This document shows positions 32,862 to 38,622 of a stretch of 61,743 nt of DNA, piece by piece; within the stretch, counting starts at the first letter, position 1, and every line of letters starts with the position of its first letter. Both the position numbers and the translations under genes were made by a program. Source of the DNA: Actinomycetes bacterium (GTDB lineage Bacteria > Actinomycetota > Acidimicrobiia > Acidimicrobiales > RAAP-2); NCBI GenBank assembly GCA_021809495.1, contig JAKAZI010000004.1, positions 1-61,743 of the forward strand, read 5' to 3'. The notes under the pieces are model-generated. The model saw nothing but the letters and a program-made list of their open reading frames with translations, was not told where the DNA came from and searched no databases.

Positions 32862-32907
32862 CAACCAGCCACACTAGAGCCTGGCCCTACCGGTGAAAGA
32901 AGGCGAC

Positions 32908-33609
32908 GTGACGACGGCCCCCAGCCCCAGCTCGTACATCGCGATTGTCGACGACGACGGCGCCATCCGGACCGCCCTGGGCCGGGCGCTACGTATGGAG
33001 ACCTACGAGGTCGGGCTGTTCGAGGACGGTGGCTCGGCCCTCAAATCGATACAGCTGCGAGCGCCCGACGCCATCGTGCTCGACCTCCAGTTGCCCGACA
33101 TCGACGGGCTCGAGGTCTGTCGGCGGATTCGCCGCGCCGGCGACGCCACGCCGATACTCATGCTCACCGCCCGCGACGCGGTGAACGACCGGGTGGCCGG
33201 CCTGGACGTCGGCGCCGACGATTATCTCGTCAAACCCTTCGACCTGGCCGAGCTGCTCGCGCGGCTGCGGGCGCTACTGCGTCGCCACACCAACCTCGAC
33301 GGCGAGGTCAGCGTGCTGCGCTTCGAGGACCTCACGCTCAACGCGAACACCCGCGAGGTCTACCGCGGCGAGCGGCGCATCGAGTTGACCAAGATCGAGT
33401 TCGACCTCTTGGAGCTCTTCCTCCAGCACCCCCGTCAGGTACTCACCCGCGACCAGATCCTCGACCTCGTCTGGGGCTACAACTTCGACTCGGGCACGAA
33501 CTCGCTCGCGGTGTACATCGGCTACCTGCGCCGCAAGCTCGAGGAGGATTCCGAGCCGCGCCTCATCCAGACGATTCGCGGTGTTGGGTACGCCCTGCGG
33601 GCCACGTGA
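32908..33609 (+). CDS. OmpR/MprA-family response regulator
   Basis: About 233 residues. Receiver domain: acidic pair in IVDDDGAI, phospho-acceptor Asp in IVLDLQLPD, conserved Lys in YLVKPFD. C-terminal winged helix of the OmpR/PhoB type (LTKIEFDLLELFLQHPRQVLTR, IQTIRGVGYAL). GTG 32908 was chosen for its AGAAGG Shine-Dalgarno; GTG 32893 is an in-frame alternative. The histidine kinase overlaps it (GTGA), so the two are a cognate pair. Confidence 0.94.
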   Translation: MTTAPSPSSYIAIVDDDGAIRTALGRALRMETYEVGLFEDGGSALKSIQLRAPDAIVLDLQLPDIDGLEVCRRIRRAGDATPILMLTARDAVNDRVAGLDVGADDYLVKPFDLAELLARLRALLRRHTNLDGEVSVLRFEDLTLNANTREVYRGERRIELTKIEFDLLELFLQHPRQVLTRDQILDLVWGYNFDSGTNSLAVYIGYLRRKLEEDSEPRLIQTIRGVGYALRAT

Positions 33610-34964
33610 CCTTCCGGTTCCGCGTCATCAGCGCCACGGTCGGGGTGGCGGCGATTGCCGTCGTCTTAGCGAGTCTGGCGTCGTTTCTCACGACCCGCGA
33701 CGCGCTGATGCGCTCGGTGGACGTGTCACTGATCCAGGCGGCCCAGTCCCCCACGTCGCACACCGTTGGCGACGAGAGCCGCGTGACCGGCGCCTACTTC
33801 GAGTTGGTGCTGGCCAACGGCACGACGATTCCGACGTCCAACGTCCCCGTCGACGCGACGATCCTCGCGACCGCTCGCGGTCACGCCGGTCAGACCCTAC
33901 GGACCGTCACCTTCGGCGGCGAGTCCTATCGCGAACTCGTCGTGCCGCTGCCCGCCAAGTCGGTCGTGATCTGCCAGACCGGTCCGTGCACGATCAGCAC
34001 CACCTCGGCCGAGTTGTTCGTGGTCAACATCAGCGGCCAGATCGGCGAGCTGCGCCACCTGGCGAGCACGCTGCTCGCGGTGGCCGCCGGGGGCCTGCTG
34101 CTCGCCCTGGTGCTCGGACTGCTGATCGCGCGCGCGGCGCTTCGCCCGCTCGAGGCGGTGACCAATGAGATCGAGGAGGTCGCCGAGACCAGTGACACCT
34201 CGCGACGCATCGACGAAGGCGGCTCCGACGAACTCGGACGGCTGCGACGGGTCTTTAACCGACTCATGAGCTCGGTTCAGTCGAGCGAGAACCTCCAGCG
34301 CCAGCTCGTCGCCGACGCCAGCCACGAACTGCGCACGCCGTTGACGAGCCTGCGCACCAACGCCCAGGTGCTCTCGCGCGCCAGCGAGCTCGGGGCCGAC
34401 GACCTGCGCCAGCTCACCGGTGACATGGTGACCCAGGTGGACGAGCTGGCGGCGCTCGTGACTGACCTCGGCGAGTTGTCGCGGGGCAACCGCAGCGAGG
34501 GTCGCGTCGAGCAACTGCGTCTCGACGAGTGCGTGGACGAGTGCGTGGACACCGCGCGCACCTACGCGCGGATCAAGAACATCACCATCGACGCCGAGGT
34601 CACCGAGTCCCTGGTCACCGGCCGGCGTGACCGACTCGTGCGAGCGATCAGCAACCTGCTCACCAACGCCGTGAAGTTCACGCCCAACGACGGTCGTATC
34701 GTCGTGCGCTCCAACGACGGCGTCGTCACGGTCTCGGACACGGGTCCCGGTATCGCCACCCACGAGCGCCACCACGTCTTTGACCGGTTCTGGCGTTCGG
34801 CGTCGGCCCGGTCACTGCCCGGTTCGGGCCTCGGACTCTCCATCGTCGCCCAGGTGGTCGACGAGTTCCGCGGCACCGTGCGCGTCGATCAGGACCCCGA
34901 GTTGGGCGGCGCGCGCTTCACGATCGTGCTGCCGACCGACGACGACGCTGACGACGACGACTGA
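33606..34964 (+). CDS. Membrane sensor histidine kinase
   Basis: A 452-residue HisKA kinase of the MprB/BaeS type. First membrane helix about residues 8-28, an extracytoplasmic sensor of about 115 residues with one Cys pair (ICQTGPC), second helix about 145-172, HAMP, H-box ADASHELRTPLTSLR, N-box ISNLLTNAVKF, G1 VSDTGPGI and G2 GSGLGLSI. The C-terminus is very acidic. The sensor Cys pair could form a disulfide. Only 46 nt separate it from the Thr-rich gene that begins the redox module, so the pair may regulate that module, though this is not shown. Confidence 0.93.
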   Translation: MTFRFRVISATVGVAAIAVVLASLASFLTTRDALMRSVDVSLIQAAQSPTSHTVGDESRVTGAYFELVLANGTTIPTSNVPVDATILATARGHAGQTLRTVTFGGESYRELVVPLPAKSVVICQTGPCTISTTSAELFVVNISGQIGELRHLASTLLAVAAGGLLLALVLGLLIARAALRPLEAVTNEIEEVAETSDTSRRIDEGGSDELGRLRRVFNRLMSSVQSSENLQRQLVADASHELRTPLTSLRTNAQVLSRASELGADDLRQLTGDMVTQVDELAALVTDLGELSRGNRSEGRVEQLRLDECVDECVDTARTYARIKNITIDAEVTESLVTGRRDRLVRAISNLLTNAVKFTPNDGRIVVRSNDGVVTVSDTGPGIATHERHHVFDRFWRSASARSLPGSGLGLSIVAQVVDEFRGTVRVDQDPELGGARFTIVLPTDDDADDDD

Positions 34965-35010: not shown

Positions 35011-35343
35011 GTGTCAGACTTTTCAAAGCAGATCCCTATGCGTACCTACCACCGCACCCCCCAACAACGCGACCGCCGCTTCGCCCGGGTCCGCAGGACG
35101 ACCCAGAGCGTCCTCATCGGATCGGGCGTGGCGTCGGGCGTCCTGGTGGGCTACGCCGCGAGCACCGCCAAGCCCCTCGTCCCCGTGCGGCCTCCGACCA
35201 CCGCCACGGCGACGACGCCCACGACGACCACGACGCCCGCGACCGGTTCCGCGAGTACCGTCTACACCCCGCCGACCACCGCCCCCGTGACGACCTCCAC
35301 GACGTGCTACACGACGCCATCGGGCACCACGGTCTGCTACTGA
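35011..35343 (+). CDS. Small anchored protein with Thr-rich exported tail
   Basis: A 110-residue protein (or 101 from ATG 35038): very basic N-terminus, one membrane helix (about residues 32-52), then an extracytoplasmic tail that is mostly Thr/Pro/Ala/Val and ends in C-x9-C-Y. The two Cys near the end could form a disulfide loop around PSGTT. I recognise no family. It lies 3 nt before apbE and so heads the redox operon. A canonical ApbE flavinylation site (S/D-G-A-T-x-T) is not present; SGTT is the nearest string. Confidence 0.65.
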   Translation: MSDFSKQIPMRTYHRTPQQRDRRFARVRRTTQSVLIGSGVASGVLVGYAASTAKPLVPVRPPTTATATTPTTTTTPATGSASTVYTPPTTAPVTTSTTCYTTPSGTTVCY

Positions 35344-35346
35344 TCG

Positions 35347-36246
35347 ATGAAGTTCACCACCTGGGGCCTGACGGGCACCCTCACGACCGAACGCCCCGCT
35401 GACGCGTCGTTCGCCTCGGCGTGCCTCTGGCGCGTCATCGGCGAACTCGACGCCGCCTGCAACCGGTTCCGCGTCGACAGCGAACTCTCGCGGCTCAACG
35501 CCGCGGCCGGCTCGCCGCTTCGCGTGTCCTCGACGCTGCTGGCGGCACTCGACGCCGCCATCGCCGCCTCGGCGGCGACCGATGGACTCTGCGACCCGAC
35601 CGTGCTCGCGTCCCTGCTCGCGTGGGGCTACGACCGCGACTACGACCAAGTTCGCGAACGCACCGACCTGGTCGAGCCGACCGTCCAGGCCGCGCCGGGC
35701 GTCGACGCCATCGAGATCGATCGGCGCGCGCGCACGGTGCGTCTCGCGCCGGGCTGTCAGGTCGACCTCGGCGCGAGCGCCAAGGCCCTCGCCGCCGACC
35801 TCGTCGCCGACGAGGTCGGTGAACGCGGTGGCGTAGTCGTGGAGATCGGTGGTGACGTCGCCGTTCGCGGAAGCGGCCCCGACGGCCCCTGGGTCATCGG
35901 TGTCGCCGACCGGCTGAGCATCGCGGGCGATGAGCCACGCGTGCGCGTCGTCGGTGGCGGCGTTGCGACGTCCTCGCTCGCGACGCGGGTCTGGCGAGTC
36001 GCCGGACGACTCGTCAACCACGTCATCGACCCGCGTACGGGCGGCGTCGCCGACGGTCCCTACGCGACGGCCACCGTCGCCGCCGACCGCTGCGTGACGG
36101 CCAACGCCTTCGCCACCGCCGCCCTGCTCTGGGGCGCGGACGCCGGCTACCGGGTCGCCCAGGCCGGCTGGTCGGGACGACTGGTGCGACGCGACGGTAC
36201 CGTGGAGTTCGTCGGTGGTTGGCCCGTCGAGGAGGGAGCCCCGTGA
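35347..36246 (+). CDS. apbE: ApbE-family FAD:protein FMN transferase
   Basis: A 299-residue ApbE protein, which attaches FMN covalently to a Thr/Ser of a target protein. Landmarks: NRFRVDSELSRLN near the N-terminus, LGASAKALAADLV, VVEIGGDVAVRG, VNHVIDPRTGG and the metal/FAD-binding C-terminal segment TVAADRCVTANAFATAAL. No signal peptide or lipobox is present, so it should act in the cytoplasm, unlike most ApbE. It is cotranscribed with the ferric-reductase-like gene (GTGA overlap). No FMN-binding-domain substrate is encoded in the window. Confidence 0.9.
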   Translation: MKFTTWGLTGTLTTERPADASFASACLWRVIGELDAACNRFRVDSELSRLNAAAGSPLRVSSTLLAALDAAIAASAATDGLCDPTVLASLLAWGYDRDYDQVRERTDLVEPTVQAAPGVDAIEIDRRARTVRLAPGCQVDLGASAKALAADLVADEVGERGGVVVEIGGDVAVRGSGPDGPWVIGVADRLSIAGDEPRVRVVGGGVATSSLATRVWRVAGRLVNHVIDPRTGGVADGPYATATVAADRCVTANAFATAALLWGADAGYRVAQAGWSGRLVRRDGTVEFVGGWPVEEGAP

Positions 36247-36968
36247 TCGCCCTGACCTCGCCGTACCTGTGGTACACCACGCGGGCCACCGGACTGGTCA
36301 CGCTGGCCCTGTTCGCCCTCGTCGTGTCGCTGGGCACCCTGGTCGCAAACCGCGCCGGCGGCACGGCCGTCGGCCGCTTCGAGCTCAACGAACTGCACCG
36401 GACGATCGCGGCGGTCGCCATCGCCTTCCTCGCGATCCACATCGTCACCACCGTCATGGACAGCTTCGTCTCGACCGGTCCCCTCGCGGCCGTCGTACCG
36501 TTCATCTCGTCCTACAAGCGACTGCCGGTCGCCTTGGGCACGATCGCCCTGGACCTCATGGTGGCGGTGTGGATCTCGAGCCTGCTGAAGGCGCGCATCG
36601 CGAATCGGAGTTGGCGCTTCATCCACTGGTTCAGCTGGCTCGCGTACGCGATCGCTCTGGTGCACGCGTTGATGACCGGCACCGACGCCCGTCACGGGGT
36701 GGGCCTCGCAATCGTGATCGCCTGTCTCGCCGTGGTCGCCGGCGCCGGCGCGTGGCGAGTCCTTGCTCGACCGACTCGCGCGGCCGGGCGAACCGCCCTC
36801 TCCCCGCTCGGCGCCGAACCCGATGCGCGCCGCGCCGAGCGCGCCACGGACCCGACGCCGGTGGCCCCGAGTAGCCGCGAAACCCCGAGTCGCGAGAACG
36901 CGCCGTCGGGACCAGGACCCGACGACGCACCCTTCCCGCGTCGTCGCCAACCCCCGCGGCGCCGATGA
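36243..36968 (+). CDS. Ferric-reductase-like transmembrane haem protein
   Basis: About 241 residues from GTG 36243. Five or six membrane helices with His pairs spaced as for haem b ligands: ELHRTIAAVAIAFLAIHIV (two His 13 residues apart) and IHWFSWLAYAIALVHAL. This matches the ferric reductase-like / YedZ superfamily, which carries electrons across the membrane through haems. The cytoplasmic C-terminus is long, Pro/Arg/Ser-rich and disordered. It overlaps apbE and the NuoF-like gene, so all are made together. Confidence 0.85.
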   Translation: MIALTSPYLWYTTRATGLVTLALFALVVSLGTLVANRAGGTAVGRFELNELHRTIAAVAIAFLAIHIVTTVMDSFVSTGPLAAVVPFISSYKRLPVALGTIALDLMVAVWISSLLKARIANRSWRFIHWFSWLAYAIALVHALMTGTDARHGVGLAIVIACLAVVAGAGAWRVLARPTRAAGRTALSPLGAEPDARRAERATDPTPVAPSSRETPSRENAPSGPGPDDAPFPRRRQPPRRR

Positions 36969-38242
36969 TCGCCCCCGAGTCGCTCCCGCGGGTGTTGCAC
37001 GGCGCCACGGGCCGTCCCCTCACCCTGGCCCAGCACGAGGAGGCCTTCGGCCCGATGCCCACGGCGACGCCGTCGCTGGACCTGCTCGAGTCATCGGGAC
37101 TGACCGGTCGCGGTGGCGCCGCCTTCCCCACGGCGCGCAAGGCCCGTCTCATCGGCGAGCAGCGGGGCCACAACAAGTTCGTGGTCGTCAACGCCATGGA
37201 GGGTGAACCCGCCGCCCACAAGGACCGCACGCTGATCAGCGCCAACCCGCACCTGGTCCTGGACGGCGCACAGTATCTGGCGCGCGTCGTCGGCGCCCGC
37301 CACGTCGCGGTGTGCGTGTCTCGTGACGACCCGATCATGGTCAACCACCTCCAGCGCGCCGTTCACGAACGCGACCGGCACGCCACGCGCGCGGTCAGCT
37401 TCGAACTGCACACCCCGCCGTGGCGCTACGTCGCCGGGGAGGAGTCGGCGCTCGTGCACTGGCTCGACGACAACGAGTCACTCCCCCAGTACCGGCCCCG
37501 GCGACCCCACGTGCTGCGCATCGGGCACGCGCCCGTGCTCGTTGACAACGCCGAGACGTGCGCCCACGTCGGCCTGATCGCACGCTACGGCGCCGACTGG
37601 TTCCGGCGTCTCGGCACGCCGACGAGTCCCGGCAGCACCCTGGTGTCGGTGAGCGGTGCGGTCGCACGACCGACCGTGCTCGAGGTCCCCCTCGGGGTGC
37701 CGGTGCGCGCAATTCTCGAACGGGCCGGCGCCGACCCCGACCCGCAGGCCCTGTTGATGGGCGGCTACGGCGGCGCGTGGCTCGACGCGCGCCACCTCGA
37801 CGTCGCCTACGCCAACGACGCGCTCGCCCCCCTCGGGTCCTCGGTCGGTGCCGGGATCATCATCGTGCTGCCCCGTTCGGGGTGCGGCCTCATCGAAACC
37901 CAGCGCATCGCACGGTGGATGGCCAACGAGAGCGCTCGCCAGTGCGGCCCGTGCGCCTTCGGCCTCCCCGCAATCGCCGACGACCTCGCGCGGCTCACCG
38001 TGGACACCCCGGGCGCCGGCGCCGCCTACGACCGCCTGGTGGACCGCTGCGGGGCGATCGAGGGTCGAGGCGCCTGTCGGCACCCCGACGGCGTGGTTCG
38101 ACTGGTGCGTTCGGCGCTTCAGGTCTTCTCCGCCCACGTCGAGGATCACGTTCGTGGGCGAGCCTGCGCCGCGAGTCGATCGAACCACCACTACAGCGCC
38201 GTGCCAACCCTCGAGCGCGAAGAGGAGCTCGTATGGGAGTGA
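36965..38242 (+). CDS. NuoF-like NADH:acceptor oxidoreductase subunit (SLBB/FMN)
   Basis: A 425-residue homologue of the NADH-binding subunit of complex I and of RnfC-like proteins. It has the FMN/NADH glycine-rich segment GLTGRGGAAFPTARKARL (about residue 43), NAMEGEPAAHKDRTL, the AGEESALVHWL region, an SLBB-like domain, and a C-terminal Fe-S motif ESARQCGPCAFGLP plus a distal Cys in GRGACRHPDG. Complex I NuoF has E-S-C-G-x-C-x-P-C; here the first Cys is Ala, leaving three. It probably passes electrons from NAD(P)H to the neighbouring ferredoxin and the haem protein. Confidence 0.85.
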   Translation: MIAPESLPRVLHGATGRPLTLAQHEEAFGPMPTATPSLDLLESSGLTGRGGAAFPTARKARLIGEQRGHNKFVVVNAMEGEPAAHKDRTLISANPHLVLDGAQYLARVVGARHVAVCVSRDDPIMVNHLQRAVHERDRHATRAVSFELHTPPWRYVAGEESALVHWLDDNESLPQYRPRRPHVLRIGHAPVLVDNAETCAHVGLIARYGADWFRRLGTPTSPGSTLVSVSGAVARPTVLEVPLGVPVRAILERAGADPDPQALLMGGYGGAWLDARHLDVAYANDALAPLGSSVGAGIIIVLPRSGCGLIETQRIARWMANESARQCGPCAFGLPAIADDLARLTVDTPGAGAAYDRLVDRCGAIEGRGACRHPDGVVRLVRSALQVFSAHVEDHVRGRACAASRSNHHYSAVPTLEREEELVWE

Positions 38243-38475
38243 GACGACGCGCCGGCGGATTCGTCCTGCTCGTCAACCCGATCCTCTGCGACGGGTTCGG
38301 TCACTGCGCCGAATTGGCGCCGGACCTGGTCCACGTCGACGAGTGGGGCTACCCCGTCATCGTCACCGAGCCCGTTCCCCTGGCCAATCTGGCCGCGCTG
38401 GAGTCGGCTCGCTACGCGGTGCGCGGCTGTCCTCGCCAGGCACTTCGCATCGAACGGGTGAGCGACGCGCACTGA
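38233..38475 (+). CDS. Small ferredoxin, probably [3Fe-4S]
   Basis: An 80-residue ferredoxin starting at ATG 38233 with Shine-Dalgarno AGGAG 5 nt upstream, overlapping the NuoF-like gene by 10 bp in another frame. It has three cluster Cys: C-x5-C in LCDGFGHCAELAPD, and a distal Cys-Pro in RGCPRQAL. The missing fourth Cys points to a [3Fe-4S] cluster, as in cytochrome P450-type ferredoxins. It is the last gene of the redox module and is the likely soluble electron carrier. Confidence 0.88.
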   Translation: MGVRRRAGGFVLLVNPILCDGFGHCAELAPDLVHVDEWGYPVIVTEPVPLANLAALESARYAVRGCPRQALRIERVSDAH

Positions 38476-38520: not shown

Positions 38521-38622
38521 ATGGGATCTCTGATTAAGAAGCGCCGCAAGCGCATGCGCAAGAAGAAGCACAAGAAGATGCTGAAGCGGACACGCTTCCA
38601 GCGCCGCGCGGCGGGTAAGTGA
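38521..38622 (+). CDS. Small ribosomal protein bS22 (AURKAIP1/COX24-like)
   Basis: A 33-residue, extremely basic protein starting MGSLIKKRRKRMRKKKHKK and ending RRAAGK. It matches the AURKAIP1/COX24 family of tiny actinobacterial proteins seen in mycobacterial 30S structures as bS22. No other function fits this composition. It lacks a Shine-Dalgarno; TAGTGT at 38505-38510 gives a very short leader. Its end lies 5 nt from the convergent ispE stop. Confidence 0.88.
   Translation: MGSLIKKRRKRMRKKKHKKMLKRTRFQRRAAGK

Follow-up and report, generated by a model that had tools for sequence, protein, structure and literature searches.

A conserved tail protein as a candidate domain-less substrate of ApbE in a redox module of uncultured Acidimicrobiales

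What might an ApbE modify in a redox gene cluster that encodes no flavin-binding domain? The question is raised by a five-gene module at positions 35038-38475 (+) of a 61,743-nucleotide stretch of DNA, hereafter the window, by which we mean the whole stretch from position 1 to 61,743 of contig JAKAZI010000004.1 (GenBank assembly GCA_021809495.1; 1.54 Mb, 89% complete), from an Actinomycetes bacterium of the Acidimicrobiales (RAAP-2). The genes lie on the same strand, are nearly contiguous and encode a small Thr-rich protein, here called the tail protein, ApbE, a Ferric_reduct membrane protein, a NuoF-like protein and a ferredoxin; 3 bp separate the tail gene from apbE and the next three junctions overlap by 4, 4 and 10 bp. 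The initial annotation of the window described a compact redox module with NuoF-like, ferredoxin and diheme parts and no gene for an FMN-binding domain (FMN, flavin mononucleotide). The module proved real and conserved when we compared 82 loci, and Pfam bore out the missing gene: FMN_bind, DUF2271 and DUF3570 had no match in the seven proteins of the window locus. Because its C-terminal tip is conserved, the tail protein is the best candidate for the ApbE substrate. We consider it an evenly balanced proposition that the module exports electrons across the membrane under regulation, using a flavin carrier that has no domain and is made by a dedicated ApbE.

The 82 loci, centred on the NuoF-like gene, comprise the window, 60 loci of its family (our selection, from 58 of the 140 family genomes with a match), 20 from a class search (from 19 of the 24 matching genomes outside the family) and one from genome contigs. 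With thresholds of E ≤ 1e-40 in the family and E ≤ 1e-60 in the class and phylum samples, both of which include the family, the NuoF-like gene was found in 140 of 172 family genomes, 49 of 395 class-sample genomes and 25 of 396 phylum-sample genomes. Locus L089, a second, different cluster in a genome of the window's genus, was counted outside the genus. ApbE lies upstream on the same strand in 75 of the 82 loci, the membrane protein is present in 79 and the ferredoxin in 81, so the recommended comparison of cluster membership, in these family and class loci, shows the genes conserved together in relatives. Three of the seven loci without a same-strand upstream ApbE are at a contig edge (L069, L077, L097) and four are not (L093, L095, L098, L104). 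The named relatives (42 loci) are metagenome-assembled genomes. Most go under Acidimicrobiaceae, Acidimicrobiales, Actinomycetes or actinobacterium, and three are recorded as Acidobacteria or Acidobacteriota.

The tail gene (35038..35343, +) encodes 101 amino acids: a basic N-terminus, a presumed membrane helix at about residues 24-41 (35107..35160, +; a hydropathy peak), a T/P linker and the tip CYTTPSGTTVCY, residues 90-101 (35305..35340, +). Its start, previously placed at a GTG at 35011, is replaced by the ATG at 35038, which agrees with the N-terminus of relatives (..RTPQQRDRRFARVR); for the tails of relatives, a simple rule chose the start codons, some of which may be wrong. That the small open reading frame (ORF) is spurious was rejected on the third-position excess of codon differences, which by codon position were 11/8/34 and 15/8/34 against two close relatives and 25/17/51 and 31/21/50 against two others. 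Since the basic side is N-terminal, the C-terminus is predicted to lie outside the membrane. Pfam profiles, FMN_bind (PF04205) included, gave nothing above cut-off for the tail protein.

Of the 82 loci, which range from genus to class level, 72 have a tail protein adjoining ApbE (71 by filter; L075 was entered by hand). Ten loci have no tail row (L045, L069, L077, L088, L093, L094, L095, L097, L098, L104); the tails of L094 and L104 were found later and stand outside the count of 72. In most loci the ORF directly upstream of ApbE is small, with a transmembrane (TM)-like stretch, an S/T/P/G/A-rich linker and a conserved extreme C-terminus, and among the tails the linker is hypervariable whereas the tip is conserved. 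The earlier name, "Thr-rich anchor", was apt in that a small Thr-rich protein is encoded here; the role of a mere anchor fits less well, as the conserved tip suggests an ApbE substrate. Five loci (L036, L080, L084, L159, L187) encode two tail-like proteins, each with its own tip (in L080, TTTGGS and VKTGAS).

Outside the genus, 22 of 33 tails end exactly in [ST]G[AGQS][ST], compared with a mean of 0.43 and a maximum of 4 in 2000 shuffles of the C-terminal parts, and 28 of 33 carry the motif within the last ten residues (shuffle mean 2.9, maximum 9). Among 200 control S/T/P/G/A-rich ORFs with a TM-like stretch, taken from 98 loci, 9 had the motif in the last ten residues and 5 at the end. These five (L080, L084, L094, L104, L160) are all found 0.5 to 4.8 kb upstream of the NuoF-like gene, on its strand, and appear to be additional or missed tail proteins. 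The shuffles and controls, uncorrected for kinship and with many controls probably not being genes, led us to reject low-complexity composition as the origin of the tip. We also compiled a longer list of 54 tails outside the genus, from which L184 and L188 are missing and in which tails of the 82 loci stand beside those of later loci. Of the 54, 28 end in [ST]G[AGQ][ST], 7 have this motif near the end and 8 end in the related [ST]-[HNRTF]-[AG]-S, one of them with a further residue.

Within the genus, all 39 tails end in C..[ST]x[PA]SG..C plus one further residue, and the two cysteines and the SG are kept throughout. The window tip contains TTPSGTTVCY, in which SGTT is present and the Asp and Ala of D-x-x-[ST]-G-A-[ST] are absent. 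The tip CHSTGSRPC, from a relative outside the genus, is intermediate in form. A single-sequence AlphaFold2 model of the window tail has low confidence overall (pLDDT 61) and no helix at the presumed TM stretch; its one confident part is a hairpin near residues 90-100 (mean of the block about 91), with strands at 90-92 and 98-100.

Published work asks little of a substrate of ApbE: only a seven-residue motif ending in the acceptor is reported to be required, its Asp was largely dispensable in one tested protein, and tags perform best at termini (PMC12052999). A separate ApbE group with an adjoining protein that ends in a motif-like Ser would fit a natural flavin tag. We put at about one half the probability, which is to say we lean neither way, that such a group exists with a substrate class that lacks any flavin-binding domain and consists only of a membrane helix, an S/T/P/G/A tether without ordered structure and a short terminal stretch of residues, and that this explains part of the genomes with an orphan apbE; the flavin would swing freely on its tether between the outer heme and an acceptor outside. 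Like the engineered flavin-tag (Tong et al., via PMC12052999), the tails would make a short terminal peptide the whole substrate; unlike that tag, as described there, which is engineered and contains Asp, they are natural, mostly lack Asp and have Gly, Gln or Ala in third position.

Could another protein in the same cell be the target? An FMN-binding-domain protein elsewhere in the genome, acting as sole ApbE target, had been named as a finding that would speak against the module. The source genome does contain one FMN_bind match, on another contig (C56), where an ApbE of its own and a ferric reductase of the FNR type accompany it, but relatives retain the module without any FMN_bind match. 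FMN_bind occurs in 108 of the 172 family genomes and ApbE in 170. Among genomes that are at least 90% complete, 21 (13 from the genus and 8 from other genera) carry the NuoF-like gene and exactly one ApbE match but no FMN_bind match. In these 21 we also found no match to NqrB/RnfD, DUF2271, DUF3570 or Flavodoxin_4; FMN_red-type substrates were not searched for, which counts against the tail as substrate. The single ApbE adjoins the NuoF-like gene in 18 of the 21, is on a separate contig in G111 and has no position for G164 and G069. Outside the family, 26 genomes have the NuoF-like gene, 13 of them with FMN_bind and 25 with ApbE, and seven (G278, G411, G438, G456, G552, G574, G866) have one ApbE match and no FMN_bind. 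Three genus genomes (G155, G157, G161; 96-97% complete) carry FMN_bind and its ApbE and have no NuoF-like match at E ≤ 1e-40, and G120 (97%) falls outside both patterns, with three ApbE matches and no FMN_bind match. We rejected an assembly accident as the reason for the missing FMN_bind gene in the window, as most relatives carry the tail protein in that slot. Nor is it required that the C56 protein serve both ApbEs, because FMN_bind-free relatives retain the cluster.

The C56 cluster consists of ApbE, an FMN_bind protein with the motif VSGASYTS, the FNR-type ferric reductase and, judged by eye, a TetR-like ORF, and this canonical type of flavinylation cluster is also found in relatives (L154-L157, L175, L177, L178). 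It resembles the window module in its presumed export of electrons to an anchored, linker-borne FMN and in an ApbE whose N-terminus is not hydrophobic, and differs in having an FMN_bind domain with the canonical motif, an ApbE of the other group and a dehydrogenase fused into the membrane protein.

These two groups are evident in the ApbE tree. The window ApbE (35347..36246, +; 299 amino acids) matches PF02424 with 157.7 bits (cut-off 25.6) as well as 6nxi, 1vrm and other structures. Aligned to Vibrio cholerae ApbE (6nxi), for which a catalytic Asp285-Ser241-His257 has been proposed, it keeps His257 and Ser241 and has Asn in place of Asp285. One branch, with support 100/98, splits 11 rows beside FMN_bind (10 genes) from 69 other rows, our group "B", which includes the window and whose genes lie beside NuoF-like or Ferric_reduct genes or have an unknown context. 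The Asp285 column is Asp in all FMN_bind partners, and Asn (53), Glu (14) or Asp (2) in the other rows. The earlier observation that ApbE has no signal peptide held, as none was seen, but it is not peculiar to this module: judged by hydropathy only, 1 of 96 rows from both groups has a strongly hydrophobic N-terminus, and none of the 11 rows adjoining FMN_bind does. Since FMN_bind partners mostly match the ApbE profile in two pieces, a count of three ApbE matches in a family genome probably often means one gene of each group. Some columns differ between the genus and the rest, for example Asn39 and Glu166 of the window ApbE.

Group B also occurs in another setting. Seven loci from other genera or families (L183, L184, L188, L190, L192, L193, L194) have a group-B ApbE beside a Ferric_reduct protein and no NuoF-like gene within the stretch fetched. 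The tails of L190 and L194 (upstream) and of L189 finish in a tip variant with histidine, SHGS or SHAS; in L189 a NuoF-like gene lies nearby on the opposite strand.

The remaining three proteins would supply the electrons. The membrane protein (36243..36968, +) matches Ferric_reduct (PF01794; 36.6 bits, cut-off 28), and its His52, His66, His128 and His141 are kept in 78-79 of 79 rows. In the model they lie on two helices, near opposite ends; which pair faces in and which faces out was assigned from the basic loops. The model has five long helices, and the published description of MsrQ-like proteins has six TM helices and two heme sites. Fold comparison matched SpNOX (Z 14.2), cytochrome b561/Dcytb (Z 13.1) and STEAP4 (Z 12.3), with unrelated helical bundles at Z 10-11.5, and Foldseek gave no match at E ≤ 0.001. 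The protein is like the NOX, STEAP and cytochrome b561 reductases in its modelled fold and in two putative bis-His hemes, and unlike them in its five modelled helices and its lack of a fused dehydrogenase, the donor being a separate NuoF-like protein and ferredoxin. A GRTALSP-like stretch follows the last helix in 38 of 40 genus rows and in 0 of 37 outside. In some loci outside the family (L099, L100, L101 and L104) the protein runs on into one more hydrophobic stretch, followed by a GWARRxGTP segment and a long extension, a putative additional domain; the segment is present in 7 of 77 loci.

The NuoF-like protein (36965..38242, +; 425 amino acids) is a putative NAD(P)H:acceptor flavo-iron-sulfur protein with matches to Complex1_51K (PF01512; 115.8 bits, cut-off 31.2) and NADH_4Fe-4S (PF10589; 50.3 bits, cut-off 23.5). 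Its score against complex I NuoF (TIGR01959), 204.8 bits, is under the curated cut-off of 558.65. Cys307, Cys327, Cys330, Cys371, Cys401 and His395 are present in 82 of 82 rows. The canonical CxxCxxC...C site retains Cys327, Cys330 and Cys371; as its first Cys is lost and Cys401 is invariant, a relocated iron-sulfur ligand is likely in this family. The ferredoxin (38233..38475, +; 80 amino acids) matches Fer4_15 (PF13459; 29 bits, cut-off 22.4) and is of the single-cluster type, with three cysteines kept in 80-81 of 81 rows.

From what is known of these families, the likely chain runs from NAD(P)H through the FMN and iron-sulfur centres of the NuoF-like protein to the ferredoxin, the two hemes and the outside. 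For the module as a whole we infer the following order. The NuoF-like protein would oxidise NAD(P)H and pass electrons through its iron-sulfur cluster to the 3-Cys ferredoxin, which would reduce the inner heme (His52/His128), and the outer heme (His66/His141) would release them outward. Group-B ApbE would place FMN on the tip of the tail, before or during export, because ApbE looks cytosolic. The acceptor would be the C-terminal Ser of [ST]G[AGQ]S-COOH in many relatives, and in the window's genus a Ser or Thr of the C..[PA]SG..C tip, in the window Ser95 (codon 35320-35322) or Thr97/Thr98. Held by one helix and a flexible S/T/P linker, the tail could then bring the flavin from the outer heme to an electron acceptor on the extracytosolic side, for which Fe(III) is one possibility.

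Several observations weigh against this scheme. The predicted flavinylation is weakest for the window's own genus, because a Ser or Thr is often missing at the canonical acceptor position: 17 of 39 genus tails have one in the fourth position and 26 in the fourth or fifth. Ser95 was assigned after the fact, and [PA]SG may be no more than the turn of the modelled hairpin. Outside the genus, 11 of the 54 tails belong to no motif class, the strict [ST]GA[ST] occurs in the ends of 6 (3 exact, 3 near), and no tail has the complete D-x-x-[ST]-G-A-[ST]; we settled on the wider pattern with the tails already in view. Of 17 further group-B ApbE loci, six lack a fitting tail: the candidates in L184 and L188 do not fit, and L179, L180, L191 and L192 have no fitting neighbour, with the genomes of L179 and L180 carrying a tail that ends in SRGS at a separate NuoF-like locus instead. 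In L088, which has ApbE, no tail was found, and L093, L095 and L098 have the module without a same-strand upstream ApbE. Group-B activity may itself differ, as Asp285 is replaced by Asn or Glu in 67 of 69 rows. Finally, the electron path can perhaps run without flavin, because some actinobacterial clusters have the membrane protein and the NuoF-like protein and no ApbE or fitting tail in the locus. We observed this, within the stretch fetched, in L163 and L165-L172, from other actinobacterial families with genomes of about 7-10 Mb; all of these but L163 also have a ferredoxin. The genome of one cluster of this type, G858, has neither an ApbE nor an FMN_bind match.

On these grounds the module might be an exporter of the MsrQ-like/NuoF kind in which the small protein does no more than serve as spacer, anchor or partner and ApbE modifies some other protein, elsewhere or in the cluster. 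We think this rather unlikely, though it deserves serious attention. The tails without a motif class, the group-B loci without a fitting tail and the unconserved acceptor position in the genus all speak for it, and other targets are conceivable, such as the genus-specific GRTALSP-like stretch of the membrane protein, an FMN_red protein or an undescribed substrate. However, the GRTALSP stretch presumably faces the cytosol, the five known substrate families are absent from the 21 single-ApbE genomes, and the tail gene adjoins ApbE in 72 of 82 loci, with a varying linker and a conserved tip.

A structural or thiol role of the genus hairpin is a live alternative: the tip would then form a hairpin closed by a disulfide and serve in structure, thiol redox chemistry or metal binding, ApbE would hydrolyse FAD (flavin adenine dinucleotide) or serve another substrate, and flavin-bearing tails would exist only outside the genus. 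The invariant cysteines and SG, the hairpin in the model and the ApbE columns that set the genus apart point this way, as does a report of an ApbE relative acting as an FAD pyrophosphatase (PMC4767422). Yet the genus has retained its ApbE with His and Ser conserved, as the sole ApbE match in 13 near-complete genomes, and the intermediate tip CHSTGSRPC in a relative outside the genus bridges the two forms; as a complete account, we regard it as improbable. The module could also be simply a ferric or quinone reductase that runs on NAD(P)H, with ApbE and the small gene as incidental hitch-hikers. This reading would suit the clusters of other actinobacterial families and the four loci that lack a same-strand upstream ApbE away from any contig end, but is very improbable in view of the 72 of 82 loci that have ApbE and tail together, especially as four of the other ten are contig ends (L045, L069, L077, L097) and the L094 tail was found later.

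For the exporter with a flavin-bearing tail, the closest published relatives are the MsrQ-like systems of Meheust et al. 2021, who counted 1797 MsrQ-like clusters, 31 of them with a NuoF-like protein (PMC8238504). As in the published description of that subset, a single cluster brings together a PF01794 protein, apbE and a NuoF-like protein with PF10589, the distribution is largely actinobacterial and NAD(P)H is the proposed donor. The module differs from MsrQ-like systems in the domain-less tail beside ApbE, the dedicated 3-Cys ferredoxin and the lack of an FMN-binding-domain gene; by sequence, the cluster would work like an MsrQ-like exporter, but its genes lack the substrate feature that defines such systems. 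The comparison with the 31 NuoF-containing clusters is by their published description, and tail-type clusters may be among them. The survey's rule asked for a signal peptide or lipid site on the ApbE, FMN_bind, DUF2271 or DUF3570 gene (PMC8238504), and the window cluster seems to have neither (ApbE N-terminus judged by hydropathy only). Such a cluster, with an ApbE that has no signal peptide, would have been excluded unless another target gene had one. The survey also reports that in 4% of its genomes (670) apbE still had no known substrate, and that rarer substrates are yet to be identified (PMC8238504). The cluster is a concrete candidate for this missing substrate. If the proposal is right, an electron-carrying flavoprotein needs no domain, a few residues on a tether being enough, and the tail is a new, very minimal kind of flavin carrier on a new route of electron exit in uncultured Acidimicrobiales, an order that includes a cultured iron reducer, Acidimicrobiaceae sp. 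A6. Among the titles and abstract beginnings listed by our searches of open-licence papers, none describes a domain-less ApbE substrate or the tail protein, which agrees with the initial view of the system as under-described.

The two-component system reported directly upstream is indeed present. It comprises an OmpR-type response regulator of 238 amino acids (32893..33609, +; Response_reg and Trans_reg_C) and a sensor histidine kinase of 452 amino acids (33606..34964, +; HAMP, HisKA and HATPase_c). In the genus this regulator pair lies upstream, with the small gene, in 39 of 41 loci, the other two (L045, L069) being contig ends. The presumed extracytosolic part of the kinase contains a CQTGPC stretch, a possible thiol or metal sensor, of which both cysteines are present in 34 of 47 aligned rows. 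A scan for promoters and terminators gave no signal exceeding chance.

The flanks of the module look unrelated to it, with an alpha/beta hydrolase upstream and a COX24_C small protein, a GHMP kinase, an rRNA adenine dimethylase and a PASTA protein downstream. The COX24_C protein (38521-38622), small and very basic at 33 amino acids (34.9 bits, cut-off 23), adjoins the 3' side of the module.

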